From positions 1 through 64,000 of IMG/VR virus record IMGVR_UViG_3300042010_000106: DNA of 64,000 nucleotides; one strand, given 5' to 3'. The notes under the pieces are model-generated. The model saw nothing but the letters and a program-made list of their open reading frames with translations, was not told where the DNA came from and made no database searches. Each line of letters starts with the position of its first letter. Within the stretch, counting starts at the first letter, position 1. A program made the position numbers and the translations under genes. This DNA is from a virus. Below are positions 24,409 through 29,460 of this stretch, in pieces.

Positions 24409-24798
24409 ATGAGCAGCTTTACCACACCCCTGATTTGTGAACTTCTGGACGATGGCGTCTCGTATAAAATCTACGAACGTTTTGTCTACAGAATTGGCGA
24501 CGTTAATTCGCAGCGCCGCGTAGAAACTGAAGTTGGTTTCGTGACCGACTTGGCTAGCACGTGGCCTTTCCGTTGGCTGCTGCCACCAAATGGGAAATAC
24601 GGTAAAGCTGCTGTGACGCACGATGATTTGTGCAAAAACAAACGCATCATGAATGGCAACATTGTCGAGACGTGCACACGTGCTGAAGGTGATGCAATTT
24701 TCTTGGAAGCAATGGGCGTTTTGAAAGTGCCTGTGCCTCTGCGTTACCTGATGTACGGACTGGTTCGCGCCTACGCAATCGCATTGAACAAGAAGTAA
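24409..24798 (+). CDS. DUF1353-family protein
   Basis: 129 residues. The family signature is clear: VGFVTDLASTWPFRWLLPP, GKYGKAAVTHDDLC, then AEGDAIFLEAMGVL and RYLMYGLVRAY. The molecular role of the family is not known; it is common in phages and prophages near tail or lysis genes. It is the last gene before a terminator. Confidence 0.8.
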   Translation: MSSFTTPLICELLDDGVSYKIYERFVYRIGDVNSQRRVETEVGFVTDLASTWPFRWLLPPNGKYGKAAVTHDDLCKNKRIMNGNIVETCTRAEGDAIFLEAMGVLKVPVPLRYLMYGLVRAYAIALNKK

Positions 24799-27285: not shown

Positions 27286-27633
27286 ATGAGTAAGTTCGCG
27301 CCAGATGCACCTTACAATGGCACTATTCGCCGTTGGGTAAAAGAGGGTTTGCGTAAGCCTTGCGAACCAAATAAATGTATTGTTGGTTTGATCGGTACTC
27401 ATGAAATACCGATGGATGAATGGCAAGCAAATGTTGACGCGTGGCAACGCAGCATTGATAGCTTTAATGAAAGCCGCTTAGCAATTCCGCATCCCGGTTT
27501 TGCGTTCCCTATTCGATTCTGTACCAAATGCGGAAATCCCGTTATGGAATTCCACGGTGAAACACCAGAAGACATCGCTGCAACGGAAGAACGAATAGCA
27601 AATATATTCAATGCAATGACAACGAAGTCGTAA
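27286..27633 (+). CDS. hypothetical protein with CxxC pair, 115 aa
   Basis: AAGGAAA site 6 bases upstream. Contains Cys26 and Cys31 early and FCTKCGNP near residue 82, so a metal site is possible. C-terminal helix EDIAATEERIANIFNA. Not recognised. Last gene before the structural unit at 27690. Confidence 0.65.
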   Translation: MSKFAPDAPYNGTIRRWVKEGLRKPCEPNKCIVGLIGTHEIPMDEWQANVDAWQRSIDSFNESRLAIPHPGFAFPIRFCTKCGNPVMEFHGETPEDIAATEERIANIFNAMTTKS

Positions 27634-27640
27634 TTTAATA
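27631..27640 (+). promoter_or_regulatory. candidate late-promoter motif TAATTTAATA
   Basis: TAATTTAATA begins with the stop codon of the 27286 gene and lies 59 bases before the 27690 ATG. It is a member of the recurring TAATTTA set; weak on its own. Confidence 0.25.
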
Positions 27641-27689
27641 CAAGGGAAAGTATTAACGGGTTCCCCAGCCCCTACACCAAGGAAACACC

Positions 27690-28610
27690 ATGGAAATTCT
27701 AAAATATACGGGCAAGCTGGCGGAAATCGTCGCGCTTGTTCGTGATGCAGGCGAGCCGCCTGATGTGCGTGCTGTTTTTGTTACACGCGAAGAAATGGAT
27801 ACCATCATTAACGACCATAGTTTCCGCACAACCGTGTCGAAATACTACGGCGATAGCTCCACGATGGTTTACAACTCCATTACCGCAGATACCGAAGGCA
27901 ATATCATTTCGCTGTATCTCAATCACATTCTGATTGCACTCGCGCCTGAAGATCCAACGGGGCCAATTGCTGAATTGACATATCCACCACTGACCACCAA
28001 TCCAAGTGCAGCGACTACGTTTGCAAATGGCGGTGATTTGCTGGTCGGTACAGGCAACCCGGCAACCGGTATGATGGTTGGTACAAACGCCAACATTGAA
28101 CTGGCTTTGGCTGTGCGTAAAGCGCAAGACCTGACGAATTACAACAGTGGCACAGGCCGCTTTGTGATTCCAGTCGAAGAAAACGAAAACTGGAATTTCG
28201 TTGTTAGCGTTGGTTCGATGAATGCGGATGTTCCAAACATCACGGACATGTACAACGTCAAACTTTTCCTCGACCTGAATTCGTACGAAGGCCAGACCAC
28301 CAATCTCGTTTTCGAACTGAAATTTGTCGAAGGTTATATCAACGGCAACGCTGTTAAAAACTACGTCTGGTACAAAGGCGTGGAACCTGTAGTAGTCGAT
28401 GGCACCACGAACGAAGACCTGACCGTCACGCAGATGATTCAGAAATATTCGTTCCAGTTTATCAGCAAATACATTCCGAGTTATGTGCAGCGTAACGAAG
28501 CTGGCGCACCACTTGGGAATTTCACGCTGCGTCTGGAAGCCACACCGAAATACGGTGATAGCGAGCCGGTATCGGTTGAAGTGTTGGCAACGATTACAAA
28601 AAAGAAGTAA
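27690..28610 (+). CDS. probable structural protein, 0-frame product of a frameshift pair
   Basis: 306 residues with a CAAGGAAA site. N-terminal alpha/beta part (VRAVFVTREEMDTII), then a strand-rich body of virion type (NWNFVVSVGSMN, LVFELKFVEGYING, NFTLRLEATPKYG). It ends ATITKKK with codons ACA AAA AAG AAG TAA, so a perfect A_AAA_AAG slippery heptamer (28598-28604) sits two codons before the stop. A -1 shift would continue into the open frame behind it, giving a 577-residue fusion. Virion role inferred. Confidence 0.7.
   Translation: MEILKYTGKLAEIVALVRDAGEPPDVRAVFVTREEMDTIINDHSFRTTVSKYYGDSSTMVYNSITADTEGNIISLYLNHILIALAPEDPTGPIAELTYPPLTTNPSAATTFANGGDLLVGTGNPATGMMVGTNANIELALAVRKAQDLTNYNSGTGRFVIPVEENENWNFVVSVGSMNADVPNITDMYNVKLFLDLNSYEGQTTNLVFELKFVEGYINGNAVKNYVWYKGVEPVVVDGTTNEDLTVTQMIQKYSFQFISKYIPSYVQRNEAGAPLGNFTLRLEATPKYGDSEPVSVEVLATITKKK
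28598..28604 (+). promoter_or_regulatory. programmed -1 frameshift site A_AAA_AAG
   Basis: In the reading frame of 27690 the bases read A AAA AAG, the most efficient class of -1 slippery heptamer in E. coli. The -1 frame is open from 28580 to 29422, has no ATG or ribosome site at its beginning, and continues KK-EVTPVPRKTFLVGTSDG without interruption. I saw no strong downstream stem or upstream Shine-Dalgarno stimulator by eye. Confidence 0.65.
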
Positions 28611-29422
28611 CGCCCGTTCCTCGAAAAACCTTTTTGGTCGGTACGTCTGACGGTTTAATTGTACAGTCGTCTCAAGGGAGTTTTGATCAAATGTCTCCGG
28701 CTACGGCCATAAGAGATATCGTCGCAGGTGCAGGCCGTTGGTTGGCTGTAGGCGGCGAAGGTTCGGGTTCTGTTTTTTCTTCCACAGACAAAGCCACTTG
28801 GGTAGAAATGCCATTTGGTTTTGGTGAGTGCAAAGCTGCAATTTTCTCTGCTGGTAAATTCTACGTAGCGGTTGATGGCGAAGGTATCTACGCACTCGAC
28901 GCGGATGTTTGGACACTGGTTCAAGCGAGCGCACAAGTTTTCACAAACGGTGTGGACGCAAACGGTGTTCCAATATTTGCAACTACGGACGGCGACCTTT
29001 GGGTTGGCCCAACGTGGACAAGTAAGAAAGTATCGAGCGGCAAATTGAAAGTTGCGTACAACGCTAAACTTTTTGTCGCAAGCCTTGTCGGTGAAACACT
29101 GGAAACATTGGTTGGAACCACCGCACAAAATCTTGTATCAGAAGGCACCAGTACCCTCGACGGACTAGATATTTTCTCGTTCTTCGTGGATGCAAACGGT
29201 GTTGTAGTCGGTACGTGTAAAATGAATGTGGATGAACCGCTGATTATGGTTCGTCGCAACAACAAATGGACATTCGTTTTCTCCGACATGCCTGTACCAC
29301 TGACTCACGTTGTGAACAAAGCCGTAGCAGGTGGCCCAACGATTTACACCACCAGCAATTACTTTGATTACACCGAGTATTACTCTGTCGATAAAGACAT
29401 AACCGCATTGCTGTACGCATAA
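28604..29422 (+). CDS. beta-propeller-like C-terminal extension, read by -1 frameshift
   Basis: 272 residues in the -1 frame of the preceding ORF. The only independent start is TTG at 28634 without a ribosome site, so frameshift expression is favoured. The sequence has repeated short blades of BNR/propeller type: GTSDGLIVQSS, VFSSTDKATWVEM, FYVAVDGEGIYAL, FATTDGDLWVG, and NKWTFVFSDMP. Such domains bind glycans or act as adhesins. Inference: a minority of the structural protein carries a propeller, perhaps for receptor or surface binding. If the frameshift fails in tests, it is an independent TTG-started gene. Confidence 0.65.
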   Translation, partial: EVTPVPRKTFLVGTSDGLIVQSSQGSFDQMSPATAIRDIVAGAGRWLAVGGEGSGSVFSSTDKATWVEMPFGFGECKAAIFSAGKFYVAVDGEGIYALDADVWTLVQASAQVFTNGVDANGVPIFATTDGDLWVGPTWTSKKVSSGKLKVAYNAKLFVASLVGETLETLVGTTAQNLVSEGTSTLDGLDIFSFFVDANGVVVGTCKMNVDEPLIMVRRNNKWTFVFSDMPVPLTHVVNKAVAGGPTIYTTSNYFDYTEYYSVDKDITALLYA

Positions 29423-29423
29423 C

Positions 29424-29460
29424 AAAGGCCCTCGTTAGCTAACGCTTTCGGGGGCTTTTT
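29424..29460 (+). terminator. factor-independent terminator
   Basis: AAAGGCCCTCG (29424-29434) pairs with CGGGGGCTTTT (29449-29459), with two G.T pairs, and runs into T. Directly behind the frameshift gene. Confidence 0.8.

Follow-up and report, generated by a model that had tools for sequence, protein, structure and literature searches.

A probable programmed −1 frameshift appends a predicted seven-bladed beta-propeller to a putative head decoration protein in Lu11/HRDY3-like jumbo phages

The window analysed here comprises the first 64 kb (64,000 nucleotides) of a 312,325-base virus record (IMG/VR record IMGVR_UViG_3300042010_000106). Within it, the open reading frame (ORF) starting at position 27690 ends in ATT ACA AAA AAG AAG TAA and carries, in phase with this zero frame, the slippery heptamer A_AAA_AAG (Table 1). 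The −1 frame is bounded by a TGA at 28577–28579 and a TAA at 29420–29422, and slippage at the heptamer would give a product of 305 + 272 = 577 residues. The initial annotation had proposed a programmed −1 frameshift at this site, and both of its starting points, the in-phase heptamer at the end of the ORF and the open −1 frame that would extend 305 residues by 272, were confirmed directly in the sequence. Among the 96 non-overlapping ORFs of the window the heptamer occurs in frame twice, the other copy being in an ORF on the minus strand, and only in the ORF at 27690 is it positioned at the end of the gene. A GAAG/GAGG sequence is present about 15–20 nt before the heptamer. It is not claimed as an upstream Shine-Dalgarno-like stimulator, as it falls within conserved Val-Glu-Val codons and lies farther away than that of dnaX.

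Table 1. Features of the locus, with positions given in the window
Feature	Position	Strand	Basis
GTAATTTAA motif upstream of the gene, probable part of a phage late promoter	27630..27638	+	shared motif
Ribosome-binding site AAGGAAA of the zero-frame ORF	27679..27685	+	sequence
Zero-frame ORF, 306 aa, most likely a capsid decoration/linking protein	27690..28610	+	homology and profile hits
Slippery heptamer A_AAA_AAG, in the zero frame	28598..28604	+	sequence; kept in 6/6 lineages
−1 frame ORF, 272 aa and stop: linker EVTPVPRKT, then predicted seven-bladed beta-propeller	28604..29422	+	AlphaFold, Foldseek
Junction linker (E/V)(V/S)(T/K)P(V/A)PR, conserved, preceding any start codon	28604..28630	+	alignment of relatives
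Zero-frame stop TAA, one codon past the heptamer	28608..28610	+	sequence
Position of putative 3' stimulatory hairpin	28614..28653	+	fold; about −17 kcal/mol in five relatives, −8.7 in the window
AAGGGAG and in-frame ATG 28691, possible internal start, window only	28674..28693	+	sequence
Intrinsic terminator directly after the −1 ORF	29424..29460	+	fold z −4.9

The same layout was found in six lineages, namely the window, the orthologous loci of Pseudomonas phages HRDY3 and Lu11, which carry both the heptamer and the −1 propeller frame, and three IMG/VR sequences recovered by profile scans (L011, L015 and L017). The zero-frame product, hereafter the carrier, is 42–48% identical between the window and the five other lineages. 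Each of the six has a zero frame terminating in NNA AAA AAG, zero or one codon and the stop, together with a −1 ORF of 268–273 codons and a fused protein of 575–578 residues, so that the comparison with related phages proposed in the initial annotation shows the heptamer, the frame, the linker peptide and the fusion length to be kept throughout. The codon preceding AAA AAG specifies Thr, Ala or Val yet has A as its third base in every lineage, which makes the heptamer, and not the amino acid, the conserved element. The chance of the five relatives keeping the heptamer was estimated from codon usage at about 2e-7, assuming no selection and independence, the true probability being higher than this as the lineages are related.

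Searches of phage records with the propeller by tblastn returned only HRDY3 and Lu11, in both cases directly downstream of the carrier. In their annotations the two frames are separate hypothetical proteins (XDJ15261/XDJ15262 in HRDY3 and AFH14573/AFH14572 in Lu11) with no frameshift and with the propeller begun at a later start, which implies an annotation correction for at least two sequenced phages, in which the propeller has been called as a truncated separate gene. Profile searches of the genome detected the carrier and the propeller in one copy each. A scan of genome contigs for relatives found none, single-sequence scans with P0001/P0002 gave no matches, and the junction DNA pattern was found in viral contigs only at the known loci and in four chance matches. 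A second DNA match (G000, 265726–265784) was also dismissed as chance, as it sits inside an unrelated ORF. Aside from these, the 218-residue BFVD entry A0A8S5UGQ6 (Myoviridae sp. ctshb19) shows 29% identity to the propeller and may be a further, seventh example whose gene was cut short and annotated on its own. It should also be noted that the local gene order differs: a protein beginning MSSFTTPL, which matches a PHROG annotated as tail assembly chaperone, is encoded upstream of the carrier gene in the window (24409–24795), while in Lu11 one with the same start immediately follows the propeller (L004, 4779–5231).

Upstream of the gene, the motif GTAATTTAA(T) was found 58–70 nt before the start codon in seven of seven loci (the window, L003, L004, L011, L013, L015 and L017), often continuing GGTAGG and in several loci continuing as AATGGTAGG. 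The GTAATTTAA/AATGGTAGG sequence resembles the annotated middle/late promoter of Lu11, CTGTAAATGGTAGGTA, and on this likeness the motif probably belongs to a late promoter. The terminator following the −1 ORF is located at the same position in HRDY3, Lu11 and L011 (fold z −2.7 to −4.4) and was recognised by sequence after the −1 stop in L015 and L017. With a terminator after the −1 stop in six of six lineages and the promoter-like motif upstream, the two frames look like one transcription unit. In five of the six lineages the sequence ACTGTA recurs just past this terminator, perhaps as the promoter of the next gene.

Synonymous conservation was examined in a codon alignment of the fused genes by scoring, at positions with the same amino acid, how often the codon was the same too, in sliding segments of 17 codons. 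The top 12 of 579 segments all start between −4 and +7 codons from the heptamer, which makes the junction the most conserved part of the gene by this measure. Codon identity in these segments was 0.82–0.89 among the five relatives, compared to 0.52 overall, and 0.79–0.87 compared to 0.51 with the sequence of the window included. This peak shows that the junction is constrained beyond the protein that it encodes.

In the five relatives, a predicted hairpin with an outer stem of ACCUG/CAGGU starts 7 nt past the heptamer. It was more stable than dinucleotide shuffles in the three relatives tested (z −2.0 to −2.9), and its advantage over synonymous recodings was not significant (z −0.5 to −1.3); covariation support for it in these relatives is almost absent because the sequence hardly varies. 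Judged by energy, a structure 5–9 nt downstream of the heptamer is thus predicted in the five relatives and not in the window. RNA folding downstream of the heptamer, put forward in the initial annotation as a check, gave no support there, as the segment 28605–28690 folds no better than its shuffles (z +0.76 to +0.83). Over 28598–28653 the window keeps the heptamer, with most of the relatives' hairpin absent. Slippage in the window may be less efficient, or a pseudoknot may be used instead. A terminator-like match between the two frames (28637–28651) was rejected, being weak and no more than shuffled sequence would be expected to give.

The −1 product was modelled with AlphaFold (five sequences) as a seven-bladed beta-propeller with a pLDDT of 89.7 and a pTM of 0.88. 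In this model 28 strands (7 x 4) make up a circular array of four-stranded blades, the first strand lying directly after the linker. Foldseek matched the model to propellers, with a best E of 8.6e-9 and a TM of about 0.7. The matched propellers are functionally diverse, BNR-like phage proteins and the 'outer capsid protein' of Vibrio phage VP2 among them, so that the comparison fixes the fold and not the ligand. No match to the −1 product was obtained with the Pfam BNR models, the only signal being Reg_prop at an E of 0.076, below its cut-off, while the propeller of a relative gave one HVO_0234-like propeller match (E 0.0014). The motif S-x-D-K-x-x-W is Asp-box-like but not canonical. Of the BNR/propeller-like blades described in the initial annotation, the propeller is therefore upheld by the model, and membership of the Pfam BNR family was not detectable. 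The −1 frame is under purifying selection, with dN/dS values of 0.14–0.41 where computable.

For the carrier, tblastn against phage records gave matches in HRDY3 (43% identity) and Lu11 (42%), with more distant matches in PA5oct-like phages, the Dolichocephalovirinae of Brevundimonas and Sphingomonas phage PAU; no −1 propeller frame was found in these more distant relatives. The PA5oct homologue is a structural/virion protein by ESI-MS/MS, according to its record note, and in the Dolichocephalovirinae the gene of the homologue is close to the major capsid gene. The profile of the carrier family matched gp16 of phage Milano, Linking protein 1 (LP1; 8fwg, E 8e-11), and a capsid protein of phage 7-7-1 (9hz8_M, E 1.7e-9). 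Residues 103–283 of PAU gp9, annotated as 'capsid decoration protein (banana)', were aligned to the carrier with an hhalign probability of 98 (E 1.5e-13, 175 columns). By profile, the carrier thus shares an Ig-type domain, its C-terminal domain at about residues 105–260, with the capsid decoration family of Milano LP1 and PAU gp9. The AlphaFold model of the carrier was poor (pLDDT 65) and too weak for a verdict from Foldseek, so that a capsid role is drawn from the sequence profiles and annotations. On this homology the carrier, which the initial annotation had named only as a structural protein, is most likely a head protein of the capsid decoration/linking type. It too is under purifying selection (dN/dS 0.17–0.34).

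The propeller could instead be a separate protein, translated from a start of its own (TTG 28634 or ATG 28691) or by termination-reinitiation after the TAA at 28608. The ATG at 28691, codon 29 of the −1 frame, does have an AAGGGAG (28674–28680) at a spacing of 10 nt, and the GenBank annotations of HRDY3 and Lu11 split the second ORF off as a truncated gene. This site had been missed in the initial annotation, as had the TTG (codon 10, without a Shine-Dalgarno sequence), and its description of the −1 ORF as having neither start nor ribosome site applies to four of the six lineages, where the −1 frame begins with a stretch free of ATG, GTG and TTG that spans 87 codons in HRDY3, 40 in Lu11, 88 in L011 and 42 in L017. 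Aside from the two starts in the window, the only early one is a GTG at codon 10 in L015. The startless beginnings share the peptide V.KPVPRRS.VVGGSG, and conserved peptide precedes every candidate start, while initiation at ATG 28691 would remove residues 1–29 and with them the strands of the first blade in the AlphaFold model. Preservation of the heptamer while the preceding codon changes would be purposeless if the propeller were made separately. With no usable start in most lineages, the point on which the earlier reading had been staked, separate translation is considered very unlikely.

A fusion could also arise by transcriptional slippage, if RNA polymerase inserted an extra A into the A6 run and some of the mRNAs thereby encoded the fusion in one frame. 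The protein outcome would be identical and the six-A run is present in six of six lineages; however, six A residues are short for efficient polymerase slippage, and both the preserved phase and final G of the heptamer and the synonymous conservation extending over the hairpin at ribosomal spacing fit ribosomal frameshifting, leaving transcriptional slippage highly improbable. The broken frame in itself, and nothing more, would suit a sequencing error or a recent frameshift mutation splitting one gene into a pseudogene. This reading is refuted by the six diverged lineages, which stem from separate isolates and assemblies and are all broken at this heptamer, and by purifying selection on both frames, and its probability is put at practically nil. 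A real frameshift on a carrier of the neck, collar or tail surface, rather than the head, would be in keeping with the baseplate-type genes about 6 kb upstream in the window, but is judged unlikely in view of the profile matches to two linking proteins whose structures were solved on the capsid, the match to the PAU capsid decoration protein and the position near the major capsid gene in the Dolichocephalovirinae. A programmed −1 frameshift fusing the structural protein to the propeller, as first proposed, is supported by the conservation in all six lineages, the lack of a usable start in most of them, the synonymous conservation at the junction and the propeller model, and is regarded as very probable.

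With such a frameshift, one late-type transcript of one gene would give two products. In the infected cell most ribosomes would stop at the TAA at 28608 and release the 306-residue capsid decoration/linking protein, with its N-terminal anchor region and Ig-type domain. A minority would slip back one base on A_AAA_AAG, with both lysyl-tRNAs re-pairing with AAA AAA, and would continue for 272 codons to a 577-residue form bearing the C-terminal seven-bladed beta-propeller. Because the two versions would share the capsid-binding part, the rate of slippage would set the number of propeller-bearing decoration sites on the head, and both could compete for the same sites in the virion, giving a mixed head surface on which the bulky propeller is not displayed at every site. 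The propeller may serve as an adhesin that binds glycans of the host or the environment with low affinity, a role to which an even chance is given; weak binding to glycans is what is usually proposed for head domains of this kind (PMC10491603). The broader proposal, that Lu11/HRDY3-like jumbo phages set the copy number of a glycan-binding head propeller by slippage and so represent a new class of capsid adhesin, is equally balanced. As Pseudomonas hosts were used to isolate Lu11 and HRDY3, it should be possible to measure directly in what proportion the plain and propeller-bearing forms occur and how this affects adsorption.

The heptamer is the same as that of Escherichia coli dnaX and other A_AAA_AAG cassettes (PMC5009743), and in the relatives of the window a predicted hairpin lies a few nucleotides downstream. 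The dnaX shift leads to an early stop, whereas the shift proposed here extends the protein, and no upstream Shine-Dalgarno sequence stands out as a stimulator at the spacing seen in dnaX. A functional parallel is offered by Agrobacterium phage Milano, where an N-terminal strand fastens LP1 to the capsid and the Ig-type domain projects outward, and where the short and long versions, LP2 and LP1, share the anchor, the extra domain being displayed only by LP1 (PMC10491603). Related linker proteins are carried by phage 7-7-1 (PMC12796354). Milano gp16 and its 7-7-1 counterpart (9hz8) resemble the carrier by profile over the Ig-type domain, which is the part that the alignment covers; the Milano system differs in using two genes and not a frameshift, in having no propeller and in the size of its proteins (217–220 residues). 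PAU gp9 differs in its length of 768 residues in one frame. In this protein (L007, 1995–4301) about 480 extra in-frame residues follow the shared domain, an extension not recognised as a propeller, so that the same kind of carrier is extended without frameshifting.

The original account of Ig-like domains appended by frameshifting is reportedly that of Fraser et al. in 2006. The addition of a surface domain by frameshifting, considered unusual in the initial annotation, has a precedent in the Ig-like domains added in this way to proteins of T3, A2 and other phages (PMC5009743). In T3 gene 10, Lactobacillus phage A2 and others, a C-terminal surface domain is likewise placed on a fraction of a virion protein by a frameshift near the end of the first frame. 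Those additions are Ig-like (with another extension in T7) and are mostly on major capsid or tail proteins, whereas the domain appended here is predicted to be a seven-bladed propeller and not Ig-like, an Ig-type domain is already part of its decoration/linking carrier, and the cassette belongs to jumbo phages. A literature search, with most subscription papers, including the Lu11 genome paper, outside its scope, gave no description of this cassette or of a propeller displayed by frameshifting. The locus can be seen as a well-supported variant of the known Ig-like strategy, the propeller domain, the head-decoration carrier and the jumbo phages being what is new, and it suggests that frameshift display of accessory virion domains is not limited to Ig-like domains and reaches a head decoration protein of jumbo phages.
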